From Microbacterium sp. ET2 (GTDB lineage: Bacteria; Actinomycetota; Actinomycetes; Actinomycetales; Microbacteriaceae), in the NCBI RefSeq assembly GCF_030347395.1, contig NZ_CP128170.1, positions 1,612,001 to 1,676,000 of the forward strand: 64,000 nucleotides of DNA, read 5' to 3'. The position numbers were made by a program, and so were the translations under genes. Below, one piece after another: positions 9,426 through 24,369 of this stretch (positions are counted from its first letter, which is position 1; each line of letters opens with the position of its first letter). A model generated the notes under the pieces. The model had not been told where the DNA came from. It saw nothing but the letters and a program-made list of their open reading frames with translations, and searched no databases.

Positions 9426-9671
9426 ATGCGTCCGCCCGCCATACCATCCGGCTGGCTCTTGAGCACCATTGCGCAGTTCGACGCACTCACCGACCTCGCC
9501 AACCTCGTGATCGCGCGCCTAGCGGAGGCTGCCGCGGACGGCAACTCGGCCGCGTCGAATGAGATCATCTGGCTGCGTGGCGGGTTGAGGGAAGTCGATC
9601 CGCGAGATGCGACCTCCATCACAACGCTTGCTTCTTCGTTGTCTCAACGCGCTGCCGAGTTGGGACCATGA
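9426..9671 (+). CDS. small protein preceding zeta-toxin-like gene, candidate antitoxin
   Basis: An 81-residue, mostly helical acidic protein from ATG 9426 (MRPPAIPSGW...). Its stop overlaps the start of the zeta-like gene by 4 bases (ATGA at 9668-9671), as in toxin-antitoxin operons. Epsilon-type antitoxins of zeta toxins are about this size, and many actinobacterial zeta toxins have such a short partner. I see no convincing sequence signature, so the antitoxin role rests on position and size. Confidence 0.55.
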   Translation: MRPPAIPSGWLLSTIAQFDALTDLANLVIARLAEAAADGNSAASNEIIWLRGGLREVDPRDATSITTLASSLSQRAAELGP

Positions 9672-10642
9672 GCGGCATCAACCCGGTCCCGTTGATCTTC
9701 GCCGGTACCGAACCGAGCCCCGCGCCGGAGCTCATGCTCGTCGTCGGACAACCGGGCGCGGGAGCACAGAGTCTGATTTACGCCCTACTCAGCGAGCACG
9801 CCCCCCGTTTTGCCAGCGTCGCCGCCGAGGACTTTGCCGCGTTTTATCCGGACTTTCTCGAGCTCGCCACTTGGCGCCCACTGGACGCCCCTGCGGCTAT
9901 GGCCCCGCGAGTGGCTGAGTGGATCGGCGCGACCCTCGACTACGCGCGCACTGCTCGGCGGTCGCTGCAGTTCACAACGAGCGTGAGCACCCCGGCGCCT
10001 GCGATCGGCACGGCCGCGGCTTTCAAGGCGGACGGGTTCTCAACGCACCTTGTAGTTGTCGCCACTCCACGTCACGAAAGTCTGTTGTCAACAGCCTCCC
10101 GCTACCTGAACGCTCGCCGTCTGCGACTACCGGCCCGGTTCACGGATCGCGCCGCGCATGACCGCGGCTTCGCCGGCACCCAAGCGCTTGCCCGGGCAGC
10201 CGACGATTCCGCTGACCTGGACCGAGTGACTGTGCTCGATCAGACCGGCCGGCGACTATTCGACGCCACCCATCCGGATGGGCTGGCCGGCGTCGCTGAG
10301 GTGGTCAAGGTGGCACACGCTGCACCGGTTTCGGTCCTCGAGGGTGCCCGATGGTTCGGGGAGCTACGCGCGATCACCGACTTCGCGAGGCGCGCGCGTG
10401 AACTCGCGCCTCCCGTGGCTGAAGTGCTCATCGAGCTGCACGAACTCGCGCGGACAGAGGTCCTACCGCGCATGCCCGTGCCACCCGATTCGTCCTTTGT
10501 GGTCGAACAGGTGATGCGTTTGCGCTCCGAGATCGACGCGCTCTCGCGCGAGCTACCAGAATCCGCTCGATCGATCGAGCGGATGCAAGAGGCCGGGCCA
10601 GTGGTGTCGCCCGCACCGTCGCGGGGTGGGCCGTCGCTGTAG
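9668..10642 (+). CDS. zeta-toxin-like P-loop protein with altered Walker A
   Basis: A 324-residue protein resembling zeta toxins, kinases that phosphorylate UDP-N-acetylglucosamine. The P-loop region reads VVGQPGAGAQSLIY (about 25-38). The lysine expected in GxxGxGKS/T is missing, replaced by Ala-Gln. The following VAAEDFAAFYPDF aligns with the zeta substrate-binding DxxR..HP region, although the usual His is also absent. A basic region near ARRLRLPARFTDRAAHDRG fits the lid. Without the lysine, kinase activity is doubtful; the protein may be inactive, immunity-like or repurposed. It is translationally coupled to the small gene before it. The next 281 bases hold no gene I can support. Confidence 0.68.
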   Translation: MSGINPVPLIFAGTEPSPAPELMLVVGQPGAGAQSLIYALLSEHAPRFASVAAEDFAAFYPDFLELATWRPLDAPAAMAPRVAEWIGATLDYARTARRSLQFTTSVSTPAPAIGTAAAFKADGFSTHLVVVATPRHESLLSTASRYLNARRLRLPARFTDRAAHDRGFAGTQALARAADDSADLDRVTVLDQTGRRLFDATHPDGLAGVAEVVKVAHAAPVSVLEGARWFGELRAITDFARRARELAPPVAEVLIELHELARTEVLPRMPVPPDSSFVVEQVMRLRSEIDALSRELPESARSIERMQEAGPVVSPAPSRGGPSL

Positions 10643-12815: not shown

Positions 12816-13406
12816 GTGCGCACACCTGACGGAGCGCCCATTACATGGGAAGATGCGACACTGCCCGTCGGTTCCGCGTTGCGGATTGCTCCTGCGTTTC
12901 GCGCAAGCGCCACTGACGAAGCTGTTGGTATCGAGACAACGTTGCACGCCCGATACCAGGCATCCGAGGGTCGCTACCTGGTCAGCGAGGTCAACAATCG
13001 TGCCCTCCGTGCCGACGTCGAGGTGAACAACCTCGCGCTTCGGCAGGTGCCGATCCAGGGCCTGATTCAGGCGGCGGCACCGCACTGCATCGCGCTCACT
13101 CTCGACAACGATGCTGATCCGACGGCGACGTGGACCACTGCCGCGGAATTGAGTAGCACCACCGGACGGATCATCCCCGAATGGCTAGCGAAGGACCTCG
13201 TCAAGCTAGCCAACAAGGATGCCCGGATGGACGCCATCGAGATCCTCTATGGCACCGCAGCCCTTGCCGGGCTGCCACCCGTGAGGGCCGTGCAGCACGA
13301 ACTCGGAGTACCCCATCGCACCGCTTCTGACTGGATCAAGAAGGCTCGTGCCGCTGGGCGCCTGGAGGGCATGAACTACATCGTCGGCCGACAGGCGGAT
13401 GGGTAG
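12816..13406 (+). CDS. HTH-containing protein upstream of integrase
   Basis: A 196-residue protein. I chose GTG 12816 because GAGGAGG (12798-12804) is 11 bases upstream; an earlier GTG at 12804 overlaps that site. The N-terminal ~110 residues (DVEVNNLALRQVPIQGLIQA) are beta-rich and unrecognised. The C-terminus, LPPVRAVQHELGVPHRTASD followed by WIKKARAAGRLEG, is a clear helix-turn-helix. The stop lies 8 bases inside the integrase gene, so the two are co-translated. Many actinobacterial elements have a small HTH protein of this kind directly before int. It may regulate integration. Confidence 0.6.
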   Translation: MRTPDGAPITWEDATLPVGSALRIAPAFRASATDEAVGIETTLHARYQASEGRYLVSEVNNRALRADVEVNNLALRQVPIQGLIQAAAPHCIALTLDNDADPTATWTTAAELSSTTGRIIPEWLAKDLVKLANKDARMDAIEILYGTAALAGLPPVRAVQHELGVPHRTASDWIKKARAAGRLEGMNYIVGRQADG

Positions 13407-14565
13407 CATCCAGTCCTATTCCACGAAGGACGGCAAACGATACCTCGTCCGATACAAGAAGCCAGATCGCACTCACGGGGCGAAGCGAGGCTTCCGGACA
13501 AAGCGCGACGCCGAGGAGTTCCTGGCCAGCGTCACGGTCGCAATTAGGCAGCAGGAGTACGTCGACCCGAGCGACTCCCGCATCACTATCGGCGAACTGG
13601 GCGAGATCTGGCTCCAGGACCAGCAGGCGGTTCTCAAACCCTCGTCGATGCATCCCCTCGAGTCATGCTGGCGCGTTCACGTGCAGCCGAGATGGGGATC
13701 CATCCGTGTCAACGCCGTCCGCTACAGCGATGCCCGGAGCTGGGTCACTGAACTGAGCGAAAGACGCGGCGCATCCACCGTGATCCGCGCATATGGCATC
13801 CTCGCGTCGATTCTCGACGTGGCCGTGCGGGACCGTCGGCTCAGAGAGAACCCGGTGCGGGGGATCAAGCTGCCCCGCAAACAGCCCAAACGACGCGTGT
13901 ACTTGACCCATCGACAGGTCGAGCTGCTCGCCAGCGAATCTCGATACCCAGACATCATCCTCTTTCTCGCGTACACCGGGTTGCGGTGGGGAGAAGCCAC
14001 GGGGCTCCGCGTCCGCGATGTCGACCCGATGCGCCGGCGCGTGCACGTGCAAGAGAACGCCGTCATGGTCAACGGCACCGTTCACACCGGCACACCCAAG
14101 ACTCACGCGGCCAGGTCCGTGCCCTACCCTGACTTCCTCGACCCGGCCATCCGCGCAGACATGCGGGGGAAGGCAGCTGAGCATCTCCTCTTCGGCGACG
14201 GCGACGAACACCTCCGGCTCCCCAGCTCCCAAGATGGCTGGTTCGCTGCCGCCGTCCGCCGCGCACGAGAGATCGACCCCGATTTCCCCTACATCTCCCC
14301 TCACGATCTCCGGCACACCGCTGCGAGCCTCGCTATCAGCGCCGGCGCAAACGTCAAAGCAGTACAGCGGATGCTCGGTCACGCCAGCGCGGCGATGACA
14401 CTTGACACGTACGCCGATCTCTTTGACGACGACCTGGATTACGTCGCACAGGCGCTCAGCCGCGCTCGCGACACCCAGCGCACGATCACCGTTCCGGAGA
14501 GTTCGCACGCAGGACCCGCCGGTTATCGCGGGCCCGGGCGCAGCTACGGTCAACTCGATCGCTGA
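13399..14565 (+). CDS. tyrosine recombinase / phage-type integrase
   Basis: A 388-residue site-specific recombinase. Residues 1-60 form an arm-binding domain (SIQSYSTKDGKRYLVRYKK) and about 65-160 a SAM-like core-binding domain. The catalytic domain follows, with Arg in AYTGLRWGEATGLRV, HxxR in SPHDLRHTAASLAIS, and the final His/Tyr in MLGHASAAMTLDTYADLFDD. All catalytic residues are present, so it should be active. The gene points towards tRNA-Ser(CGA), whose 3' end is the likely attachment site. Confidence 0.93.
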   Translation: MGSIQSYSTKDGKRYLVRYKKPDRTHGAKRGFRTKRDAEEFLASVTVAIRQQEYVDPSDSRITIGELGEIWLQDQQAVLKPSSMHPLESCWRVHVQPRWGSIRVNAVRYSDARSWVTELSERRGASTVIRAYGILASILDVAVRDRRLRENPVRGIKLPRKQPKRRVYLTHRQVELLASESRYPDIILFLAYTGLRWGEATGLRVRDVDPMRRRVHVQENAVMVNGTVHTGTPKTHAARSVPYPDFLDPAIRADMRGKAAEHLLFGDGDEHLRLPSSQDGWFAAAVRRAREIDPDFPYISPHDLRHTAASLAISAGANVKAVQRMLGHASAAMTLDTYADLFDDDLDYVAQALSRARDTQRTITVPESSHAGPAGYRGPGRSYGQLDR

Positions 14566-14739: not shown

Positions 14740-14830
14740 TGGCGGTGACGGTGGGATTTGAACCCACGGTAGGGGGTTACCCTACACAACTTTTCGAGAG
14801 TTGCACCTTCGGCCGCTCGGACACGTCACC
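14740..14830 (-). tRNA. tRNA-Ser(CGA)
   Basis: The minus strand folds as a serine tRNA with a long variable arm. The acceptor stem is GGTGACG/CGTCACC, the discriminator base is G and CCA is encoded (complement of 14740-14742). The anticodon loop CTCGAAA gives anticodon CGA, reading UCG. The T-arm is GTGGGTTCAAATCCCAC. Its 3' end faces the integrase gene, so it is the probable insertion site of the element to the left. Confidence 0.93.
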
Positions 14831-15114: not shown

Positions 15115-16065
15115 ATGGCGGTCATCGAGAACTCCAAGGTCACCATCGTCGGCGCCGGAAGCGTGGGCGCGAGCACCGCGTACGCCGCGCTGATCCGCGG
15201 CTCAGCCCGCCACGTCGCCCTCTACGACATCGCCACGGCGAAGGTCGACGCCGAAGTGCTCGACCTCGCCCACGGCACCCAGTTCACCGGTCGGAGCGAC
15301 ATCACCGGCGGCAGCGACATCGGCGTCGCCGAGGGGTCGCACGTCGTCGTCATCACCGCCGGCGCGAAACAGGACCCCGGGCAGACGCGGATCGACCTGG
15401 CGGGAGTCAACGCCGGCATCCTCCAACGCATGCTGCCCGAGCTCCTCGACGTCGCCCCAAACGCGATCTACGTCATCGTGACGAACCCCTGTGACGTGCT
15501 GACGGTCCGCGCGCAGCAGGAGACCGGACTCCCTCCCGAGCGCATCTTCGCCTCGGGCACCGTGCTCGACACCTCGCGCCTGCGATGGAAGCTCGCGCAG
15601 CGCGCCGGGGTCTCGACCTCGAGCGTGCACGCCTACATCGTCGGCGAGCACGGCGACACCGAGTTCCCGCTGTGGTCTCGGGCGACGATCGGCACCGTGC
15701 CGATCCGCGAGTGGCAGGCCGCGGGCCATCCGCCGATGACGCAGACCGAACTCGACGAGATCGCCGTGGATGTGCGGGATGCCGCGTACAAGGTCATCCA
15801 GGGGAAGGGCGCGACGAACCACGCCATCGGCCTCTCCAGTGCCCGCATCATCGAGGCGATCCTCGGCGATGAGCACGCGGTGATGCCGGTCTCGACCGTG
15901 CTGCGCGACTTCCACGGCGTCGACGGCGTTGCCCTCTCGGTGCCGTCGATCGTCAGCGCGTCGGGTGCGACCCCGGTGCGTGAGACCGGCTTCTCCGATC
16001 ACGAGCTCGAGCTGTTCCAGCGTTCGGCCGAGGCGATCCACGACGTCGCGCGGTCGCTCCCCTGA
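15115..16065 (+). CDS. ldh: L-lactate dehydrogenase
   Basis: A 316-residue NAD-dependent L-lactate dehydrogenase that interconverts pyruvate and lactate in the cytoplasm. The Rossmann motif VTIVGAGSVGASTAYA is at residues 9-24. VIVTNPCDVLT follows, and the catalytic His is in YIVGEHGDTEFPLWS. The length is normal. Start ATG 15115 is chosen because in-frame sequence upstream has no LDH similarity and the N-terminus MAVIENSKVTIVG is typical. Upstream lie strong inverted repeats. The gene is convergent with the FadR-type gene and not obviously part of an operon. Confidence 0.95.
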   Translation: MAVIENSKVTIVGAGSVGASTAYAALIRGSARHVALYDIATAKVDAEVLDLAHGTQFTGRSDITGGSDIGVAEGSHVVVITAGAKQDPGQTRIDLAGVNAGILQRMLPELLDVAPNAIYVIVTNPCDVLTVRAQQETGLPPERIFASGTVLDTSRLRWKLAQRAGVSTSSVHAYIVGEHGDTEFPLWSRATIGTVPIREWQAAGHPPMTQTELDEIAVDVRDAAYKVIQGKGATNHAIGLSSARIIEAILGDEHAVMPVSTVLRDFHGVDGVALSVPSIVSASGATPVRETGFSDHELELFQRSAEAIHDVARSLP

Positions 16066-16097
16066 CCACGGCCTCTGACCCGAAGCCGCCCGCTCCC

Positions 16098-16814
16098 TCA
16101 GCCGAGGAACCCTCGCAGCAGGGCCTCGGAGCCGGCGAGGTGTTCGAGAGTGGCCGCCTCCGCGGCATCCGCTCGCCCGGCCAGAATCGCGGTGACGATC
16201 GCCTCGTGCTGGGCGTTGGAGTGCTCGATGTTGCGGGGAAGAAGCGGGAACGCGTCGAGCCAGACATTGACCTGCGCCCGGTTCTCGGCGATGAGGGCGA
16301 CCAGCGAAGGTACCGCGGCGAGCTCGGCGATCGTCAGGTGCAGCAGCGTGTCGAGCCGGCGGTAGTCGTCCGTGCCGGCGAGCGCCGCCTCCTCGTGCCG
16401 AGCCCACAGCTCCGCCCGCGCCTCGGGGTCGAGGGTACGCCCGGCGGCGGTGCGAGCTGCGCCCGCCTCGAGCACCCGTCGAAGCCCGAGGACGTCTTCG
16501 AGCTCGGCTGAACCCACGTCGACCGCGGCCGGCTGCGGCAGCGGGTCGGCCACGAACGTGCCGCCGTACCGGCCGCGCCGCCGCACGAGGTAGCCGGTGT
16601 CGGCGAGCTCGCGGATCGCCTCGCGCACGGTGTCGCGGCTCACCCCGTACAGCCCCGCGAGCTCGCGCTCTGGCGGGAGCGACTCCCCCGGCGCGACGAC
16701 GCCCAGCCGCACCGTCTGAATCAGGCGGGCGACCGTGTCTTCGAGGGCGTTCCCCCCGCGCACCGGCCGGTAGACCGCGCGCCGTACGGCGGGAAGGGGC
16801 ACCTCGACGGACAC
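16098..16814 (-). CDS. FadR/GntR-family regulator of the gamma-glutamyl amine cluster
   Basis: A 238-residue repressor. The winged helix spans residues 25-90 (ERELAGLYGVSRDTVREAIR is the HTH; RYGGTFV is in the wing). The C-terminal FCD ligand domain carries the metal-type histidines in LLHLTIAEL and SNAQHEAIV. It is the last gene of the minus-strand cluster, 9 bases after the SDR gene, so it is probably co-transcribed and controls the cluster according to an amine-derived metabolite. I could not identify a convincing operator in the 21152-21364 divergent promoter region. Confidence 0.88.
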   Translation of the reverse strand: MSVEVPLPAVRRAVYRPVRGGNALEDTVARLIQTVRLGVVAPGESLPPERELAGLYGVSRDTVREAIRELADTGYLVRRRGRYGGTFVADPLPQPAAVDVGSAELEDVLGLRRVLEAGAARTAAGRTLDPEARAELWARHEEAALAGTDDYRRLDTLLHLTIAELAAVPSLVALIAENRAQVNVWLDAFPLLPRNIEHSNAQHEAIVTAILAGRADAAEAATLEHLAGSEALLRGFLG

Positions 16815-16823
16815 GGCACTCGC

Positions 16824-17597
16824 CTACAGAGGTGTCACGTACGCGTTGGTGATGCCGCCGTCGACGACGAAGGCGGTGGCCGTGATGAACGAGGCGTCGT
16901 CGGAGGCGAGGAAGGCGACCGCCGCGGCCATCTCCTCAGGCTCGGCGAACCGGCCCATCGGCACGTGGATGAGGCGCCGCTGCGCGCGCTCGGGGTCTTT
17001 GGCGAAGAGGTCCCGCAGCAGCGGGGTGTTGACCGGTCCCGGGCAGAGCGCGTTCACGCGGATGCCCTGCCGTGCGAACTGGACACCGAGCTCGCGGGTC
17101 ATCGCGAGCACCCCGCCCTTGGACGCGGTGTACGAGATCTGCGAGGTCGCCGACCCCAGCAGTGCGACGAACGACGCGGTGTTGATGATCGATCCCCGTC
17201 CCGCGGGCACCATGTGCCGCAGCGCTGCGCGGGAGCACAGGTACACGCTCTTGAGGTTCACGTCCTGCACCCGGTCCCACGCGGGCAGCTCGGTCGCCTC
17301 GATCGAGTCGTCGTCGGCGGGTGAGATGCCGGCGTTGTTGAAGGCGATGTCGAGGCGCCCGAGATCGCCAGCGACCGAATCGAAGAGCTGATTGACGGAT
17401 GCCTCGTCGGCGACGTCGACCGGACGGAAGAGGCCGTCCACCTCGGCGGCCGCCCGCTCGCCCGCCGCGGGGTCGACGTCGGCGATCACGACGCGGGCGC
17501 CTTCGGCGGCGAAGCGGCGGGCGGTGGCGAGGCCGATGCCGCTCGCGCCGCCGGTGACGATGGCGACCCGGTCGGCGAGGCGCTGGGTGAGGTCCAT
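16824..17597 (-). CDS. short-chain dehydrogenase/reductase
   Basis: A 257-residue classical SDR. The cofactor motif TGGASGIGLA is at 15-24, with Asp in VVIADVD favouring NAD. NNAGIS follows. The catalytic Ser region is SIINTASFVALLG and the active site is SYTASKGG (YxxxK). It lies between the aldehyde dehydrogenase and the FadR regulator, all on the minus strand. In this context it could oxidise the alcohol of a gamma-glutamyl-amino-alcohol to the aldehyde that the next enzyme consumes. That role is inference; annotation by similarity alone would be 3-oxoacyl-ACP reductase-like. Confidence 0.88.
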   Translation of the reverse strand: MDLTQRLADRVAIVTGGASGIGLATARRFAAEGARVVIADVDPAAGERAAAEVDGLFRPVDVADEASVNQLFDSVAGDLGRLDIAFNNAGISPADDDSIEATELPAWDRVQDVNLKSVYLCSRAALRHMVPAGRGSIINTASFVALLGSATSQISYTASKGGVLAMTRELGVQFARQGIRVNALCPGPVNTPLLRDLFAKDPERAQRRLIHVPMGRFAEPEEMAAAVAFLASDDASFITATAFVVDGGITNAYVTPL

Positions 17598-17662
17598 GGG
17601 TGTTTCCTGTCTTGAATGTGGTGCGTTTCGTCTCGCTGCGCTCGCTCAACGACCGAAGCGGG

Positions 17663-19021
17663 TCAGTCGGTGGCGAAGAAGACGTTCTTGGTCTCGGTGA
17701 AATGCTCGGCGGCGTCGGGTCCGAGCTCTCGCCCGAGACCCGAGGCCTTCATCCCCCCGAAGGGCGTCGCGTACCGCACCGAGGAGTGGGAGTTCACCGA
17801 CAGCACGCCGCTCTTGACGCCACGCGCGACGCGCACGGCGCGGCCGAGGTTCTCGGTCCACAGCGACCCGGCGAGGCCGTAGATCGTGTCGTTGGCGAGG
17901 CGGATCGCGTCGGCCTCGTCGTCGAAGGGCAGCACCGCGACGACCGGGCCGAAGACCTCCTCCTGGGCGATGCGGTCGCCGGGGGATGCGAGCACAACCG
18001 TGGGCGCGAACCAGAACCCCTCGCCGGCCGGCGCTGCGCCACAGAAAGCGACGTCGGCGCCGTCGAGGAAGCCAGCGACGGTGTCGCGGTGCGCGGCGGA
18101 GATGAGCGGCCCCATGTCGGTGTCGGCCGATCCGGGGTCGCCCACACGCCAGGCCTGCACGGCGGGTTCGAGCAGCTCGAGGAAGCGGTCGTAGACCGAG
18201 CGTTCGACGAGGAGGCGGCTGCGGGCGCAGCAGTCCTGCCCGGCGTTGTCGAACACCGATCCGGGCGCACTCGCGGCGGCGCGTTCGAGGTCGGCGTCGG
18301 CGAAGACGATGTTGGCCGATTTGCCGCCCAGCTCCAGCGTCACCGGCTTCAGCATGCGGGCACAGCCCGCCGCGACATCCGTCCCCACCTCGGTGGAGCC
18401 GGTGAAGACGACCTTGCGCACATCGGGATGGCTGACGAACCGTTGCCCGACGACCGAACCCGACCCGGTGACGACCTGGAAGAGCCCTTCGGGGAGCCCC
18501 GCCTCGAGGGCGAGTTCGCCGAGACGGATGGCGGTGAGCGGCGTCAGCTCGGCCGGCTTCAGCACCACGGCGTTGCCGGCGGCGAGCGCCGGCGCGAACC
18601 CCCACGAGGCGATCGTCATCGGGAAGTTCCACGGCACAATGATGCCGATGACGCCGTACGGCTCGTGGAACGTCACGTCCAGGCCCCCGGCAACGGGGAT
18701 TTGCTGGCCGATCAGGCGCTCCGGGGCGCCCGCGTAGTAGTTCAGCACCTGGGCGACGTGCGAGGCCTCCCACCTCGCCGACCCGATCGGGTGGCCGGAG
18801 TTCTCCACCTCGAGGGCGGCGAGCTCGTCGACGTGCGCCTCGACCACGCGCGCGAAGCCGCGGAGCGCGTCGGCGCGGGCGCCCGGGGCCAGCGCGGCCC
18901 AGGTCCGCTGCGCCGCGACGGCGCCCGCGATGGCGGCGTCGACCTCGGCGAGCCCTGCGCGCGGGATCTCGCGGAACGCCCGTCCGGTGGCGGGGTTGAC
19001 CAGGGTGATCGTGTCGCTCAT
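17663..19021 (-). CDS. NAD(P)-dependent aldehyde dehydrogenase
   Basis: A 452-residue ALDH, slightly shorter than the usual 475-500. It has PWNFPMTIASWGFAPALAAG (substrate/cofactor channel), FTGSTEVG, LELGGKSANIV with the general base Glu, and NAGQDCCARSRLLVE with the nucleophilic Cys, plus the C-terminal EEVFGPVVAVLPF. Its start overlaps the stop of the C26 hydrolase by 4 bases. In the PuuC-type role it would oxidise a gamma-glutamyl aldehyde to the acid before hydrolysis by its neighbour. Confidence 0.92.
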   Translation of the reverse strand: MSDTITLVNPATGRAFREIPRAGLAEVDAAIAGAVAAQRTWAALAPGARADALRGFARVVEAHVDELAALEVENSGHPIGSARWEASHVAQVLNYYAGAPERLIGQQIPVAGGLDVTFHEPYGVIGIIVPWNFPMTIASWGFAPALAAGNAVVLKPAELTPLTAIRLGELALEAGLPEGLFQVVTGSGSVVGQRFVSHPDVRKVVFTGSTEVGTDVAAGCARMLKPVTLELGGKSANIVFADADLERAAASAPGSVFDNAGQDCCARSRLLVERSVYDRFLELLEPAVQAWRVGDPGSADTDMGPLISAAHRDTVAGFLDGADVAFCGAAPAGEGFWFAPTVVLASPGDRIAQEEVFGPVVAVLPFDDEADAIRLANDTIYGLAGSLWTENLGRAVRVARGVKSGVLSVNSHSSVRYATPFGGMKASGLGRELGPDAAEHFTETKNVFFATD

Positions 19022-19815
19022 GCCGACACCTCCTGAGCTGACTGCGCATCACGCGAGCGGGCGCGGTAGTCGGCGGCCTCGCGCACGAGCCCGGCGAACA
19101 ATCGGCGGTCATCGAGGTTCTGTTCGGGATGCCACTGCACGCCGAGCAGGTAGCCGTCGCCGGTGCCCTCCACGGCGTAGGCCAGTCCGTCTTCGGTGCG
19201 TGCGGTGACGGCGAGCCCCTCGCCGAGGCGGTCGATGCCCTGGTGGTGGTAGCTGTGCACGTGCTGCGTGCCGGCCCCGACGAGCTCGGCGAGGCGCGAA
19301 CCCGCCTCGACCTCGGCGGGGTTCGTCGCGAAGACCCCGCCGCCCAGCCGGTACCTCTCCGTGCCGAGCACGTCGGGAAGGTGCTGATGCAGGGTGCCGC
19401 CGCGTGTGACGTTGACCACCTGCATCCCCCGACAGATCGCCAGCACCGGCATCCGTCTCTCTTCCGCGCCCGCGAACAGCGCCAGCTCCCACGCGTCGCG
19501 GTCGGCGCGGGCGGGGTCAGTGAGCGGATGTCGCGGCGCGCCGTACAGCTCGGGCTGCACGTCGACCCCACCGGTGAGGATCAGTCCGTCGAGCCCGTCG
19601 AGGACCGCGGGCGCGGCGTCGTCGGGCGCGGGCTGCGGCGGCAGGAGCACCGCGATGCCGCCTGAGGCGGTCACGGCATCGAAGTACACCTCGGGCAGGA
19701 AGGCGGCCCGCACGTCCCACACGCCCTGTGCTGCCTGCTCGAGATACGTGGTGAGGCCGATGACGGGCCGCCTCGTTCGCGCGATGCCGATGCCATCAGA
19801 GCCGCTCGAAACCAC
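19018..19815 (-). CDS. class C26 gamma-glutamyl hydrolase (PuuD-like)
   Basis: A 265-residue glutamine-amidotransferase-fold hydrolase. The nucleophile Cys lies in VLAICRGMQVVNVTRGG, and the His-Glu pair in GVQWHPEQNL completes the triad. LILTGGVDVQPELYG is typical of gamma-glutamyl-gamma-aminobutyrate hydrolases. It would release glutamate from the oxidised gamma-glutamyl compound, the last step of the pathway. It overlaps the ligase gene by 20 bases and the aldehyde dehydrogenase gene by 4, so the set is tightly coupled. Confidence 0.9.
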   Translation of the reverse strand: MVSSGSDGIGIARTRRPVIGLTTYLEQAAQGVWDVRAAFLPEVYFDAVTASGGIAVLLPPQPAPDDAAPAVLDGLDGLILTGGVDVQPELYGAPRHPLTDPARADRDAWELALFAGAEERRMPVLAICRGMQVVNVTRGGTLHQHLPDVLGTERYRLGGGVFATNPAEVEAGSRLAELVGAGTQHVHSYHHQGIDRLGEGLAVTARTEDGLAYAVEGTGDGYLLGVQWHPEQNLDDRRLFAGLVREAADYRARSRDAQSAQEVSA

Positions 19816-21151
19816 GCACCCGCTCCCAATCGGTCACGGCGGCGTCGTAGGCCTCGACCTCGATGCGCGCCTGGTTGAGGTAGTGCTCGACGACCTCGTC
19901 GCCGAACGCCGCCCGCGCGATCGCCGACTCCTCGAAGAGCCGCGCCGCCTCGCGGAGGGTCGTCGGCAGATGGTCGACGCCGGCGGCGTAGGCGTTCCCG
20001 CGGAGCGGGTCGGGAAGCGGCAGGTCGTGCTCGAGCCCGTGGAGGCCACCGGCGATGATCGCGGAGATCGCCATGTAGGGGTTCACGTCACCGCCGGGCA
20101 CCCGGTTCTCCACGCGCAGCGACGAACCGTGCCCGACCACGCGCAGCGCACAGGTGCGGTTGTCCACGCCCCACGCGATGCCGGTCGGCGCGAAGCTGCC
20201 CTTGGCGAAGCGCTTGTACGAGTTGATCGTCGGCGCGTAGAGCAGGGTGAACTCGCGAAGCGTGGCGAGGATCCCGGCGATCCACGACTGCATGAGCGGG
20301 CTGAACCCGTGGGGGCCGTCACCGGACATCACCGGCTCCCCCGACTCCGAGCGCACCGAGAGGTGGATGTGGCAGCTGTTGCCCTCGCGCTCGTTGAACT
20401 TGGCCATGAAGGTGATCGCCTTGCCGTGCTGGTCGGCGATCTGCTTGGCGCCCGTCTTGTAGATCGTGTGCTGGTCGGCGGTCTCGAGCACCTCGGCGAA
20501 GCGGAACGCGATCTCCTGCTGCCCGAGGTTGCATTCGCCCTTGACGCCCTCGCAGTACATGCCCGCCCCGTCCATTCCCAGACGGATGTCACGCAGCAGC
20601 GGCTCCAGTCGGGTGGAGGCGAGGATGTCGTAGTCGACGTTGTAATCGGTGGAGGGTGCGAGATCGCGATACCCCTTGGCCCACGCGGAGCGATAGCTCT
20701 CATCGAAGACCATGAACTCCAGCTCGGTACCGCTGAACCCGACGAGTCCGCGCTCGGCGAGGCGGGCGCGCTGTGCCTGCAGGATGGCGCGAGGGGACTG
20801 CGAGACCGGCTCGCCGCCCTCCCACCCGAGGTCGGCCATGACCAGCGCGGTTCCCGGCTGCCAGGGGATGCGGCGCAAGGTCGCGACGTCGGGCAGCAGC
20901 ATCATGTCGCCGTACCCGGTCTCCCAGCTGGCCATGGTGTAGCCGTCGACGGTGTTCATGTCGACGTCGACCGACAGGAGGTAGTTGCAGGCCTCGGCCC
21001 CGTGGTGCAGCACTTCCTCCTGGAAGAGGCGCGCCGACACCCGCTTGCCGACCAGGCGACCCTGGGCATCGGCGAAACCGACGATGACCGTATCGACCTC
21101 GCCGGCCGCGATGGCGGCCGCCAACTCGGGCGGAGTCATGTTTCCCGGCAT
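19796..21151 (-). CDS. glutamine-synthetase-like gamma-glutamylamine ligase (PuuA/GlnA3/GlnA4 type)
   Basis: A 451-residue GS-fold ATP-dependent ligase, first gene of the catabolic operon. Metal and ATP motifs are recognisable: FSGTELEFMVFDE, GECNLGQQEIAFR, NSCHIHLS and NPYMAISAIIAG. The segment RRIPWQPGTALVMADL is that of PuuA-like enzymes, and the adenylylation tyrosine loop of true GlnA is not evident. It should join glutamate to an amine. The adjacent ethanolamine-permease-like gene points to ethanolamine (as GlnA4) or a small polyamine. The start may be ATG 21151 or the internal MTPPEL four codons on. Confidence 0.88.
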   Translation of the reverse strand: MPGNMTPPELAAAIAAGEVDTVIVGFADAQGRLVGKRVSARLFQEEVLHHGAEACNYLLSVDVDMNTVDGYTMASWETGYGDMMLLPDVATLRRIPWQPGTALVMADLGWEGGEPVSQSPRAILQAQRARLAERGLVGFSGTELEFMVFDESYRSAWAKGYRDLAPSTDYNVDYDILASTRLEPLLRDIRLGMDGAGMYCEGVKGECNLGQQEIAFRFAEVLETADQHTIYKTGAKQIADQHGKAITFMAKFNEREGNSCHIHLSVRSESGEPVMSGDGPHGFSPLMQSWIAGILATLREFTLLYAPTINSYKRFAKGSFAPTGIAWGVDNRTCALRVVGHGSSLRVENRVPGGDVNPYMAISAIIAGGLHGLEHDLPLPDPLRGNAYAAGVDHLPTTLREAARLFEESAIARAAFGDEVVEHYLNQARIEVEAYDAAVTDWERVRGFERL

Positions 21152-21364
21152 CCTTGCTCCTCACTGTGGTGCAGCGCTCCCCCGGCGTCAGGCGGCGGCG
21201 CCTTTGAACGATGGGCCTTTCGACCGATCGGTCGCCGACCGCTGGGGTCCGGTCGCGACCACTGTAACCGGGTCTGCCGAGATAAAGGTAGACACAGCCC
21301 ACCATTAGGTCCACAATCATCCGCAAGGCGCAGACCTCGCCGCACCCGAGCGCACGGAGGACGG

Positions 21365-22909
21365 ATGTCACAGTCGAGAAGCGAGTCGCAGAAGGTCGCT
21401 GGCGCGACCTATACCCGAGCCGGTCAGGAGTACTTCGAGAAGCGCGGACTCAAACGCGCCGCGGGAATCTGGGGCCTGTGGGGTCTCGCCGTCGCCGCGG
21501 TGATCTCGGGGGACTTCTCGGGGTGGAACTTCGGCATCGACTTCGCCGGCTTCGGCGGCATGCTGATCGCGTTCGCCGTACTGGTGCTCATGTACTACGG
21601 ACTGATCTTCTCCATCGGCGAGATGGCGGCGGCGATGCCGCACACCGGCGGCGCGTACTCGTTCGCCCGCTCGGCGATGGGCCCCTGGGGAGGGCTCGTC
21701 ACCGGCCTCGCGGAGACGATCGAGTACGTCGCCACCACCGCCGTCATCGTCTATTTCTCGGCGTCCTACGCCGACGCGATCACGAGCGAGCTGCTGGGGC
21801 TCTCGTTGCCGCCCTGGGTGTGGTGGCTCGTGCTGTACGTGGTGTTCATCGCCCTGAACTCCGCGGGAGCGGCGATCTCGTTCCGCTTCGCGATCGTCGT
21901 CTCCGTCATCTCGATCGGCATCATCCTCGTCTTCTCGCTCATGGCGGTCTTCTCGGGCGCGTTCCAGTGGGCGAACCTCTGGGACATCGCCCCCGACCCG
22001 GGCCAGTCCGCGTTCCTGCCCCACGGCGTACTGCCGATCCTGTTCGCCCTGCCGTTCGCGATGTGGTTCTTCCTCGGCATCGAGGAGCTGCCGCTGGCGG
22101 CGGAGGAGTCGCACAACCCGGTGCGCGACATCCCGAAGGCGGGCTTCTGGGCTCGCGGCACCCTCATCGTCACCGGGCTGCTCGTCCTCTTCCTCAACAC
22201 CGGCGTCATCGGCGCGGAGGCGACGGGTGTCGCCGGTGAACCGCTCCTCGACGGCTTCCGCGCCATCGTGGGCGATGAGGCGGCGGCGGTCCTCGCCCTC
22301 CTCGCCCTCGTCGGTCTCCTCGCGTCGCTGCAGGGGATCATGTTCGCCTACGGGCGCAACATGTACTCCCTCTCCCGCGCCGGGTACTACCCGCGCTTCC
22401 TCTCCCTGACCGGCAAGCGCAAGACCCCGTGGGTGGCGCTGACCGTCGGCGCGGCGATCGGCTTCGTGGCGCTGGCGATTCTCGACACCCTTGCCGCGGT
22501 GAACGAGGGCGCCGGCGCGGTCGCCGGCGCGATCGTGCTGAACATCGCGGTGTGGGGTGCGGTGCTGGCCTACTTCCTGCAGATGGTGTCGTTCGTGCTG
22601 CTGCGGCGGAAGTTCCCGAACGTCACCCGCCCCTACAGGAGCCCGTGGGGCGTGCCGGGCGCGGTCCTGGCAGCGGTGATCGCGGCGATCGTCTTCGTCG
22701 GGTTCCTCCTGAACCCCACCTTCCTTCCGGCGATCATCGCGATCGTGATCGTGTACGTCGTCATCCTGCTCGGATTCGGCCTGTTCTTCCGTCACCGTCT
22801 CGTGCTTTCGCCCGAGGAGGAATACGCTTTGTCCGGGGGGCGCCACGGCGACCCTCAGGCAGAGGGATACGACGCCATGGAGTCTCAGGTCTTCGGCAAG
22901 GACGCCTGA
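21365..22909 (+). CDS. APC-family amine permease, ethanolamine permease-like
   Basis: A 514-residue transporter with about 12 membrane helices. The N-terminal region (AAGIWGLWGLAVAAVISGDF, then GWNFG and MPHTGGAYSFARSAMGPWGG) closely follows the pattern of ethanolamine permeases of the APC superfamily. Downstream come FLGIEELPLAAEESHNPVRD and YRSPWG. It is divergent from the ligase operon across 213 bases that must hold both promoters, and would supply the amine. In-frame upstream sequence is antisense to the neighbouring genes, so ATG 21365 (MSQSRSES) is the start. Substrate assignment is by family only. Confidence 0.87.
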   Translation: MSQSRSESQKVAGATYTRAGQEYFEKRGLKRAAGIWGLWGLAVAAVISGDFSGWNFGIDFAGFGGMLIAFAVLVLMYYGLIFSIGEMAAAMPHTGGAYSFARSAMGPWGGLVTGLAETIEYVATTAVIVYFSASYADAITSELLGLSLPPWVWWLVLYVVFIALNSAGAAISFRFAIVVSVISIGIILVFSLMAVFSGAFQWANLWDIAPDPGQSAFLPHGVLPILFALPFAMWFFLGIEELPLAAEESHNPVRDIPKAGFWARGTLIVTGLLVLFLNTGVIGAEATGVAGEPLLDGFRAIVGDEAAAVLALLALVGLLASLQGIMFAYGRNMYSLSRAGYYPRFLSLTGKRKTPWVALTVGAAIGFVALAILDTLAAVNEGAGAVAGAIVLNIAVWGAVLAYFLQMVSFVLLRRKFPNVTRPYRSPWGVPGAVLAAVIAAIVFVGFLLNPTFLPAIIAIVIVYVVILLGFGLFFRHRLVLSPEEEYALSGGRHGDPQAEGYDAMESQVFGKDA

Positions 22910-22923
22910 CCATTTCTCACCGG

Positions 22924-22961
22924 GGCGAGGTGCTGCGACTGGGGGGTTGCAGCGCCTCGCC
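22924..22961 (+). terminator. terminator after the amine permease gene
   Basis: GGCGAGGTGCTGC (22924-22936) pairs with GCAGCGCCTCGCC (22949-22961) with one G-T pair, 15 bases after the permease stop. No U-tract follows, as is usual in high-GC actinobacteria. Confidence 0.65.
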
Positions 22962-23007
22962 GACGGAGAGCGGATGGGATGTCGCAGGCCCCGGCTAAGG
23001 TCGCAGC

Positions 23008-24369
23008 ATGCCCCGTCGCACCGCCACCACCGCGCCGTACCGGTGCACGGAGTGCGGGTGGACGACGGCCCGCTGGGTCGGGCGGTGCGGCGAGTGCCAG
23101 CAGTGGGGCACGGTCGTCGAAGCCGCGGAGCAGACCGGCATCACGACGCAGATCACGCCGGTCGCTCCGGGTGCGCAGCGCGCAGCGCGACCGATCACCG
23201 CGGTCGATACGCGGGATGCTCCGCGGCGGACGACGGGGGTCGGCGAGTTCGATCGCGTGCTCGGCGGGGGCCTCGTGCCCGGCGCCGCCATCCTCCTGTC
23301 CGGCGAGCCGGGAGTCGGCAAGTCGACGCTGCTGCTCGAGGTGGCGGTGCACGCGGCGCGCAGCGGCCAGCGCGTGCTGTACGCCAGCGCCGAGGAATCA
23401 CTCGCTCAGGTGCGCCTCCGCGCGGAGCGCACCGGCGCCCTCCACGACGAGCTGTATCTGGCCAGCGAGACCGACCTGGCCACCATCCTCGGTCACATCG
23501 ACGAAGTCGCTCCCGACCTGCTGATCGTCGACTCGGTGCAGACCGTGTCGTCCGCGCTGTCCGACGGTGCGGCCGGGCACCCGAGCCAGGTCCGCGAGGT
23601 CGCTTCGACTCTCATCCGCGTAGCCAAGGAGCGGGCCCTGCCGACGATCCTCGTCGGACATGTCACGAAAGACGGCACGATCGCGGGCCCCCGCATCCTC
23701 GAGCACCTCGTCGACGTCGTCTGCCAGTTCGAGGGCGACCGGCAGACCTCGCTCCGATTCGTCAGGGCCCTGAAGAACCGGTTCGGCCCCACAGACGAGG
23801 TCGGATGCTTCGACATGACCGGCGAGGGGATCGCCGAGGTCCCCGACCCCAGCGCCCTGTTCCTCGGCCACGGCGACCCGGTCCCCGGCACGTGCGTCAC
23901 CATCGCGCTCGAGGGTCGCCGGGCGATGCCGGTGGAGATCCAGGCGCTGACGATCCCCACGGCGTCGCCGAACGCACGCCGCGTCGTGAGCGGCGTGGAC
24001 GGCGCCCGGGTGGCGATGATCCTTGCGGTCATCGAGAAGCGCCTGAATCTGAAGGTCTCGGCGTGCGACGTCTACGTCTCCACCGTCGGCGGGGTGCGCC
24101 TGCTCGAACCCGCAGCAGATCTGGCCATCGCGGTCGCGGTGGTGAACTCGATGCGCGACCGCGCGCTGGCGCGCGGAGTCGCCGCGATCGGCGAACTCAC
24201 GCTCGCTGGCGAGGTCCGGCCGGTCACGCAAGCCGCGCAGCGGCGCTCCGAGGCGGGCCGCCTCGGCTACGCGACGGTCGTCGACGCGTCATCCGGTCAT
24301 CTCGCCGCGGCGCTCCGCGACCTCGTGCCCCACGCGTCGGGTCGCCTGCAGGACGTTCCCGACTTCTGA
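23008..24369 (+). CDS. radA: DNA repair protein RadA
   Basis: A 453-residue RadA/Sms, a RecA-like ATPase that promotes branch migration in recombinational repair. It has the N-terminal C4 zinc finger (YRCTECGW...WVGRCGEC), Walker A GEPGVGKST near 94, Walker B LLIVDSVQTV, the RadA-specific KNRFG motif near 251, and the C-terminal Lon-like domain (ACDVYVSTVGGVRL; IGELTLAGEVRPV). Length and motifs are complete. It is preceded by a terminator and is transcribed alone. Confidence 0.97.
   Translation: MPRRTATTAPYRCTECGWTTARWVGRCGECQQWGTVVEAAEQTGITTQITPVAPGAQRAARPITAVDTRDAPRRTTGVGEFDRVLGGGLVPGAAILLSGEPGVGKSTLLLEVAVHAARSGQRVLYASAEESLAQVRLRAERTGALHDELYLASETDLATILGHIDEVAPDLLIVDSVQTVSSALSDGAAGHPSQVREVASTLIRVAKERALPTILVGHVTKDGTIAGPRILEHLVDVVCQFEGDRQTSLRFVRALKNRFGPTDEVGCFDMTGEGIAEVPDPSALFLGHGDPVPGTCVTIALEGRRAMPVEIQALTIPTASPNARRVVSGVDGARVAMILAVIEKRLNLKVSACDVYVSTVGGVRLLEPAADLAIAVAVVNSMRDRALARGVAAIGELTLAGEVRPVTQAAQRRSEAGRLGYATVVDASSGHLAAALRDLVPHASGRLQDVPDF

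Follow-up and report, generated by a model that had tools for sequence, protein, structure and literature searches.

Which amine is broken down by a gene cluster that pairs a glutamine synthetase (GS)-like ligase with an aldehyde dehydrogenase (ALDH), an SDR, and a hydrolase, and that holds no FAD oxidase, is the question raised by a locus of Microbacterium sp. ET2. The locus lies in the window, the stretch of 64,000 nucleotides of contig NZ_CP128170.1 that was analyzed. Open reading frames and profile searches place the ligase, ALDH, SDR, class C26 hydrolase, FadR-type regulator, and permease all together (Table 1), confirming the composition given in an earlier, sequence-only reading of the DNA. 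The five minus-strand genes form a tight run, and the permease gene is divergent. By frame coordinates, the ligase and C26 genes overlap by 20 bp and the C26 and ALDH genes by 4 bp, with gaps of 65 bp between ALDH and SDR and 9 bp between SDR and regulator. The start codon of the permease is most likely the ATG at 21365, which follows GGAGGA, and the longer frame (19394-22909) is an upstream extension.

Table 1. Genes and control block of the locus, in window coordinates.
Feature	Coordinates	Strand	Basis or remark
FCD-domain GntR (FadR-type) regulator, 238 aa	16098..16814	-	PF00392 + PF07729
SDR, predicted gamma-glutamylethanolamide dehydrogenase, 257 aa	16824..17597	-	NF004713, 475 bits
ALDH, predicted gamma-glutamylglycine former, 452 aa	17663..19021	-	PF00171, 517.9 bits
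Class C26 hydrolase, predicted gamma-glutamylglycine hydrolase, 265 aa	19018..19815	-	PF07722, 210.8 bits
Probable GlnA4-type gamma-glutamylethanolamide synthetase (GS-like ligase), 451 aa	19796..21151	-	PF00120 (Gln-synt_C)
APC-family permease, ethanolamine-permease-like, 514 aa	21365..22909	+	TIGR00908, 329.7 bits
Conserved divergent control block (AAAGGTAGACAC ... CACAATC)	21284..21318	+	Probable permease promoter and predicted operator region

The ligase falls below the curated cut-offs of the models for glutamine synthetase type I (TIGR00653, 218.3 bits against 429.15) and glutamate-ammonia ligase type III (TIGR03105, 228.8 bits against 469.6). All 13 of the fixed GlnA4 active-site residues (metal, glutamate, ADP, and the F that stands for E327) whose positions are given in PMC6529630 are identical in the ligase; in that numbering, ligase E256 corresponds to GlnA4 E269 and ligase F320 to GlnA4 F331, where an ammonia GS has E327. 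This comparison uses the published residue numbers and other Streptomyces ligases, in place of the SCO1613 sequence itself. The pocket positions D81/D69 and V189/D186 of GlnA4 depend on a model, according to the same text (PMC6529630), and by the same offset, D186 is kept (D173), V189 is I176, and D81/D69 are V68/N56. The full GlnA4 residue pattern is seen in 62 of 78 aligned rows. The other 16, which deviate at the E269 and/or F331 column, are ammonia GS, GMAS, Proteobacterial, Thermomicrobium, Allomeiothermus, Rhodococcus, and Paenarthrobacter rows, as well as PDB 5dm3 and 11zs. F331 alone is not specific, as Proteobacterial rows have it too.

One could consider the ligase an ordinary ammonia-assimilating glutamine synthetase next to unrelated genes, since its Gln-synt_C domain conserves the metal, glutamate, and ATP residues. 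However, this reading deserves next to no credence with F at the E327 position, the curated GS cut-offs missed, a conserved operon around the gene, and two further GS proteins in the genome, both of which carry E at the E327 column. A phylogeny against GlnA4 had been proposed as a check, and the tree, built without SCO1613 and without a named IpuC, PauA, or GlnA3 reference, puts the ligase inside a 63-row actinobacterial clade with the ligases of the Streptomyces-family clusters (support 100/96). The stretches CNYLL..DMNTVDGY and YNxDY are common to these proteins. On sequence grounds, the best-supported assignment is a GlnA4-type ligase that groups with the Streptomyces-type GlnA4 ligases. 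Belonging to this clade is not enough to assign a function, because a Paenarthrobacter ligase of the same 63-row clade (L134) has residues A and Y and an aminotransferase neighbor, and L093, L109, and L110 have the GlnA4 residues on stretches without ALDH or SDR.

The profile search found no FAD oxidase domain among the six genes that fill 16098-22909, so the reported absence of PuuB is true of the locus. It is a statement about the locus only because DAO-family (PF01266) matches occur at 48 places genome-wide. These matches, along with the place of the C26 hydrolase in the PuuD superfamily, would fit a putrescine or polyamine (Puu-type) route whose FAD oxidase is encoded elsewhere in the genome. 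Against it, the ligase scores 181.5 bits where the curated cut-off for gamma-glutamylputrescine synthetase (PuuA; NF045547, GGputSyn) is 650, the route has no step for an alcohol dehydrogenase, and no PuuB-named family is among the best 25 listed for six scanned DAO segments of the 48 places. The scan took match segments, not whole proteins, from six of eight fetched loci. Among the families listed, one segment was over a curated cut-off, as L-2-hydroxyglutarate oxidase, and for the rest the matches were generic or incomplete, to glycine and sarcosine oxidase, aminophosphonate oxidoreductase, glycerol-3-phosphate dehydrogenase, and malate:quinone oxidoreductase models. With the ligase under its cut-off and the locus without an oxidase, the Puu-type route was rejected as very improbable.

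The sequence-only reading had the SDR replace the oxidase. The SDR scores over the curated cut-off of 404 bits for NF004713, a family named 3-oxoacyl-ACP reductase, and also passes a broader subfamily model (NF005559, glucose 1-dehydrogenase, 238.3 against 215). Across 148 class genomes, 54 SDRs exceed the NF004713 cut-off, and 53 of them are encoded at most 2.3 kb downstream of a ligase match and on its strand; none of the 18 matches below the cut-off is placed that way. Nine of the 62 ligase-bearing class genomes have no over-cut-off SDR; two of these nine, G023 and G054, have their ligase close to a contig end. The linkage fits the proposed dehydrogenase role and suggests that the family is the dehydrogenase of the gamma-glutamylethanolamide pathway, which would give a better name to proteins that automatic annotation now labels “3-oxoacyl-ACP reductase.” The comparison with PuuB did not hold up as well, for the SDR corresponds more closely to the iron-containing alcohol dehydrogenase of Proteobacterial clusters.

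The ALDH passes no curated cut-off among the 25 of 43 NCBIfam families listed, and 57 of the 60 fetched loci have an ALDH next to the ligase. The C26 hydrolase matches the C26 domain itself and stays below the cut-off of the PuuD model (NF008471, 109.3 bits against 266); its translation contains AICRGMQ, with a Cys, and QWHPEQ, with His and Glu, the putative catalytic residues. At E <= 1e-60, the permease matches a single NCBIfam family, TIGR00908 (ethanolamine permease), and since its score is under the cut-off of 381.75, the protein is named only ethanolamine-permease-like. Identity with the permeases of the Streptomyces-family loci is about 40-42%, and the two of those that were scored both exceed the TIGR00908 cut-off. 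In L117, L118, and L125, the permease identity to the window is down to 60-68%, while the ligase is still at 83-86%. This divergence and the low score could indicate that the locus handles a primary amino alcohol other than ethanolamine, such as 3-aminopropanol, with the same chemistry and the permease setting the substrate. In a wider form, the Microbacterium cluster would have shifted to another primary amino alcohol or a lipid-derived amine, the cassette being retuned by transporter exchange. Both forms are unlikely: the 13 fixed residues and the two common stretches are held jointly with the Streptomyces-family ligases, and the permease matches no family strongly except ethanolamine permease.

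The locus thus very probably serves ethanolamine catabolism of the GlnA4 type in Microbacterium. Its gene content, orthology, active-site residues, and synteny, and the missing EutB match, can be read from the sequence, and the substrate, step order, and repression are carried over from work on Streptomyces and Proteobacteria. The permease would import ethanolamine, which the ligase would couple to glutamate through the gamma-carboxyl group in an ATP-consuming reaction, giving gamma-glutamylethanolamide. The SDR would oxidize the free alcohol of this intermediate to an aldehyde with NAD(P) as cofactor, the ALDH would convert the aldehyde to gamma-glutamylglycine, and the C26 hydrolase would split the latter into glycine and recovered glutamate. 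This is the route that had been proposed from the letters alone, and it is supported by the orthology, the active-site residues, the gene partners, the lack of an EutB match, and the published Streptomyces gene set. A search of the 3.6 Mb genome for EutB gave nothing at E <= 0.001, and the E. coli control was matched (one of 14 control genomes). A monoalkylamine route, for isopropylamine (Ipu type) or for methylamine or ethylamine, would likewise start with a GS-like gamma-glutamyl ligase. It is extremely unlikely here, as there is no monooxygenase among the six genes and the glutamate-methylamine ligase 9qur falls outside the clade of the ligase in a comparison from which IpuC is absent.

In the GlnA4-type scheme, the FCD-GntR protein would repress the divergent promoters until the substrate arrives. 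A regulator homologue is present in 45 of the 60 fetched loci and adjoins the ligase in all 80 named loci listed. In PMC9397018, sco1614 is described as a negative regulator, and the window regulator, in the matching position, is a putative repressor of the cluster. Its candidate target is the intergenic block. AAAGGTAGAC is found in all 18 aligned Microbacterium intergenic regions, AAAGGTAGACAC in 16, and CACAATC in 15. A 12-mer of the block occurs only once in the genome, and a sigma-70-like match (TAGACA-17-CACAAT, 21289-21317) is the only one in 16000-23100, where 0.3 are expected. The block is probably the permease promoter plus a predicted operator region and offers a regulatory site open to testing. 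It looks like a Microbacterium feature because, in other families (L071-L110), GTAGAC/GTCTAC with flanks was upstream of the ligase in only five of 40 loci, with no common context.

The cluster is common in the class, not rare. A ligase match is found in 62 of 148 class genomes and 104 of 198 genus genomes, own genome counted in each, and for 17 of the 104 the match reaches no more than 37-61% identity. These counts and the Proteobacterial form described in PMC10132767 qualify the claim that the pathway is rarely described outside Streptomyces. The grouping of the genes is more than chance, since the six-gene order is kept in all 17 fetched main-clade Microbacterium loci (L111-L127) and ligase, ALDH, and SDR occur together in 56 of the 60 fetched loci. 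The 80 named loci listed, a lower bound of such loci (79 titled Streptomyces and one “Actinobacteria bacterium”), have regulator-ligase-ALDH-SDR in 79 cases, C26 in 76, and permease in 42.

An integrase and a tRNA-Ser adjoin the window locus. Cargo of a genomic island was considered and rejected, as 16 of the 17 main-clade loci are flanked by counterparts of the window's LDH, RadA, GNAT, or ClpC genes and a single one (L112) shows an integrase homologue; L127 has none of these flanks within its stretch. The flanks vary in detail: in the window, L111, and L112, RadA lies toward the permease, and in L113-L125 it lies toward the regulator.

Among the known systems, the putrescine (Puu) pathway of E. 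coli has the same ligase-ALDH-C26 hydrolase logic. It uses the FAD oxidase PuuB in place of an alcohol dehydrogenase, and the ligase here is outside its GGputSyn family. The EutBC ethanolamine ammonia-lyase pathway acts on the same substrate with a B12-dependent lyase, whereas EutB is unmatched in this genome. In M. tuberculosis, glnA4, an amidotransferase, aldC, and an SDR presumably lie in a row. GlnA4 is Rv2860c there, its function called unclear in PMC11841054, and a literature search found no paper naming at least three of the four Rv locus tags together.

The Streptomyces glnA4 cluster (SCO1610-SCO1615) was assigned to ethanolamine use in 2019, and the ATP-dependent glutamylation of ethanolamine by S. 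coelicolor GlnA4 was shown in vitro by HPLC/MS (PMC6529630). The ligase, ALDH, SDR, amidotransferase-like (C26) hydrolase, regulator, and probable chemistry are the same, as is the APC permease in part of the Streptomyces species. In Microbacterium, however, the C26 gene lies between ligase and ALDH, the regulator is at the operon end, and the permease belongs to a subfamily with lower scores. S. coelicolor itself has no such permease gene (PMC6529630). The ethanolamine operon of Phaeobacter MED193, said to be closely related to genes of Chromohalobacter salexigens and Agrobacterium (PMC10132767), has a homologous ligase, an ALDH, and the same overall scheme, and Paracoccus shows this gene order too. 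The Proteobacterial operon differs in that an annotated iron-containing alcohol dehydrogenase replaces the SDR, an N-formylglutamate amidohydrolase replaces C26, and a TRAP transporter replaces the APC permease.

Since the Streptomyces gene set and the Proteobacterial version are in print, the locus would be a member of a known pathway, not a new one. New here are the NF004713 evidence, the conserved divergent promoter block, and a permease below the ethanolamine-permease cut-off. A literature search found no paper linking Microbacterium with ethanolamine and glutamylethanolamide, and a pathway worked out in Streptomyces would now extend to Microbacterium and be frequent in the class. The comparison points to a modular route, in which the homologous ligase and the ALDH are constant and the alcohol dehydrogenase, the hydrolase, and the transporter vary between phyla.

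Open frames and domain searches place five closely packed genes on one strand of the host genome (3.6 Mb, a single contig), with an APC permease gene divergent from them. The ligase and C26 frames overlap, as do those of the C26 hydrolase and the aldehyde dehydrogenase (ALDH), and the remaining gaps are 65 and 9 bp, a spacing as in one operon. The translations carry what we take to be catalytic signatures: YTASK in the SDR, GQDCC in the ALDH, and AICRG and QWHPE in the C26 hydrolase. Frames and domain matches thus confirm the locus of ligase, SDR, ALDH, C26 hydrolase, regulator and permease that the sequence-only reading had described. An integrase and a tRNA gene lie on one side; they probably mark an integrated element that adjoins the cluster without including it.

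Features of the cluster and its neighborhood (window positions)
Feature	Position	Strand	Remark
GS-like ligase, class C26 hydrolase, ALDH, SDR, GntR regulator with FCD domain	21151 down to 16098	minus	in this order
SDR	16824-17597	minus	
APC permease	start about 21365		divergent from the five-gene run
Sigma-70-like match	21289-21317		
Tyrosine integrase	13399-14565		
tRNA-Ser	14740-14830		beside the integrase
Zeta-toxin-domain frame	9668-10642		further off

From its sequence, the window ligase is predicted to be of the non-ammonia kind. Its profile scores are 218 bits for GS type I (cut-off 429), 229 for GS type III (470) and 182 for gamma-glutamylputrescine synthetase (650). The two best-scoring solved structures are 11zs (414 bits) and 5dm3 (386 bits), with the third far lower at 174. 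The database title of 5dm3 is "L-glutamine synthetase"; presumably it is the Chromohalobacter salexigens enzyme from an ethanolamine operon. All 13 fixed residues listed for S. coelicolor GlnA4 in PMC6529630 are identical in the window ligase, with a numbering offset of 13 through H276 and 11 beyond. At four further positions, which that paper calls model-dependent, D186 is kept, V is replaced by I once, and two are not D at the same offset. The complete 13-residue pattern occurs in 62 of 78 aligned rows, namely the window, all 60 fetched loci (L071-L130) and one Arthrobacter plasmid. In the column of window F320, the two other GS proteins of the host and an archaeal GS have E; the Proteobacterial rows have F as in the window, but lack E256. 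All organism names given among the best 120 ligase relatives are Microbacterium.

In a ligase tree of 77 rows, the window ligase falls within a 63-row actinobacterial clade (support 100/96), together with Streptomyces-family rows. Next to this clade, in no settled mutual order, stand Thermomicrobium, one Rhodococcus ligase and a group in which Allomeiothermus joins 5dm3, 11zs and four Proteobacterial rows. Ammonia GS and the methylamine ligase branch outside. The deep branching order is unsure because long branches were flagged for a second Rhodococcus ligase and the host's own GS. One member of the 63-row clade, from Paenarthrobacter plasmid pYJN5-2, has other active-site residues and an aminotransferase neighbor, and the clade is therefore functionally non-uniform. 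On this plasmid, an ALDH-aminotransferase-ligase unit is present in two inverted copies, with PxpA and an FCD regulator close by, and the ligase looks like it serves a different pathway.

Sixty stretches were fetched: 40 from a search of the class, which matched in 62 genomes including the host, and 20 from a search of the genus, which matched in 104. ALDH is present in 57 of the stretches and ALDH with SDR in 56; 53 contain C26, 45 contain the regulator and 29 contain the permease. Main-clade Microbacterium loci have all six genes in the window's order (17/17). ALDH and SDR are both absent from three stretches (L093, L109 and L110), and L086 lacks the SDR close to a contig end.

Other arrangements were also seen. 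The ligases of L109 and L110 (genomes G072 and G038), 52-55% identical and with the same residue fingerprint, have no ALDH or SDR nearby; in both, an MMPL-family transporter gene lies immediately downstream on the opposite strand. The enzyme may have another use there. A second Microbacterium cluster type (12 of the 104 matching genomes; L128-L130 in G282, G260 and G300) has a 55-61% identical ligase; its genes are ordered differently, and the genes that flank the window cluster are absent. Thirteen Microbacterium relatives in the genus search form a third group at 36-39% identity (e.g., G267:C11:376182-377501), and some of their genomes also carry the main type.

The SDR belongs to NCBIfam NF004713, named 3-oxoacyl-ACP reductase; among solved structures, 4wec, titled "Short chain dehydrogenase," comes nearest (437 bits). 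Among the 148 class genomes, 53 of 54 members above cut-off lie 1.4-2.3 kb downstream of a ligase match and on its strand, whereas the 18 weaker hits all lie elsewhere. Full scoring was limited to 16 candidates per genome, and the count of more distant SDRs is therefore too low. The one member found apart is a second copy in G073, 17 kb from a ligase. Since almost all above-cut-off hits of the family occur in GlnA4-type ligase operons, its name looks wrong, and the simplest reading is that its members would be gamma-glutamylethanolamide dehydrogenases.

The window permease scores 329.7 bits against the ethanolamine-permease model, under the cut-off of 381.75. The permeases of L071, L073, L103, L107 and L118 also stay under it (334 to 373.5), and the two Streptomyces-family permeases tested reach 494 and 500, and that of Thermomicrobium 436. 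The identity of the substrate thus rests on the enzymes and the published Streptomyces work, which support the proposed route from ethanolamine via gamma-glutamylation. No match to EutB was found in the host genome.

Of 18 aligned Microbacterium ligase-permease intergenic regions, all contain AAAGGTAGAC, 16 contain AAAGGTAGACAC and 15 contain CACAATC; a 12-mer of this block occurs once genome-wide. The block contains the only sigma-70-like match within 16000-23100, TAGACA-17-CACAAT, fitting a candidate permease promoter; the hexamers are 17 bp apart in 5/18 regions and 18 bp in 10/18. We infer that the FCD regulator binds this block. In Streptomyces, the regulator SCO1614 is reported to act negatively (PMC9397018).

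On Ruegeria, Paracoccus and Aminobacter plasmids, a homologous ligase and ALDH adjoin genes annotated as iron-containing alcohol dehydrogenase and N-formylglutamate amidohydrolase, with a TRAP transporter added in Paracoccus; in the fetched stretch of Paraburkholderia, the fourth Proteobacterial row, neither an ALDH nor an alcohol dehydrogenase is listed. Paracoccus has its genes in the same order as the Phaeobacter operon described in PMC10132767. There, the TRAP binding protein (ethanolamine Kd 7.9 uM) and four enzymes increase on phosphorylethanolamine. Compared to this operon, the window has an SDR in place of the iron alcohol dehydrogenase and a C26 hydrolase in place of a different amidohydrolase, and thus the two occupy those places. 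By this analogy, the scheme would be complete without a FAD oxidase. The SDR is better regarded as the equivalent of the iron alcohol dehydrogenase than, as in the earlier idea, as a replacement for such an oxidase; DAO-family proteins are encoded elsewhere in the genome. On Thermomicrobium and Allomeiothermus plasmids, an SDR annotated as glucose 1-dehydrogenase adjoins the ligase.

Some plasmids carry additional genes. In Arthrobacter sp. U41 and Ruegeria conchae, the ligase gene has an inositol-monophosphatase-family gene a short way upstream, whose product could dephosphorylate phosphoethanolamine. On pAA03 of Aminobacter aminovorans, the beta-hydroxyaspartate cycle genes bhcR-bhcABCD come after the ethanolamine-type operon and are a possible glycine/glyoxylate outlet.

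The closest known system is that of Streptomyces. A scan of named genomes gave at least 590 relatives, of which the best 80 were kept; 79 of them carry Streptomyces in the title, and the remaining one is an "Actinobacteria bacterium." Regulator, ligase, ALDH and SDR occur together in 79 of these 80 loci, C26 in 76 and the permease in 42; residue spacing identical to the published GlnA4 numbers was counted in 15, with the counting motifs not detected in 10. Their gene content is the same as the set for ethanolamine use in PMC6529630 and PMC9397018, and the order is equal for SCO1611-SCO1615. The window cluster adds modestly to an already known type.
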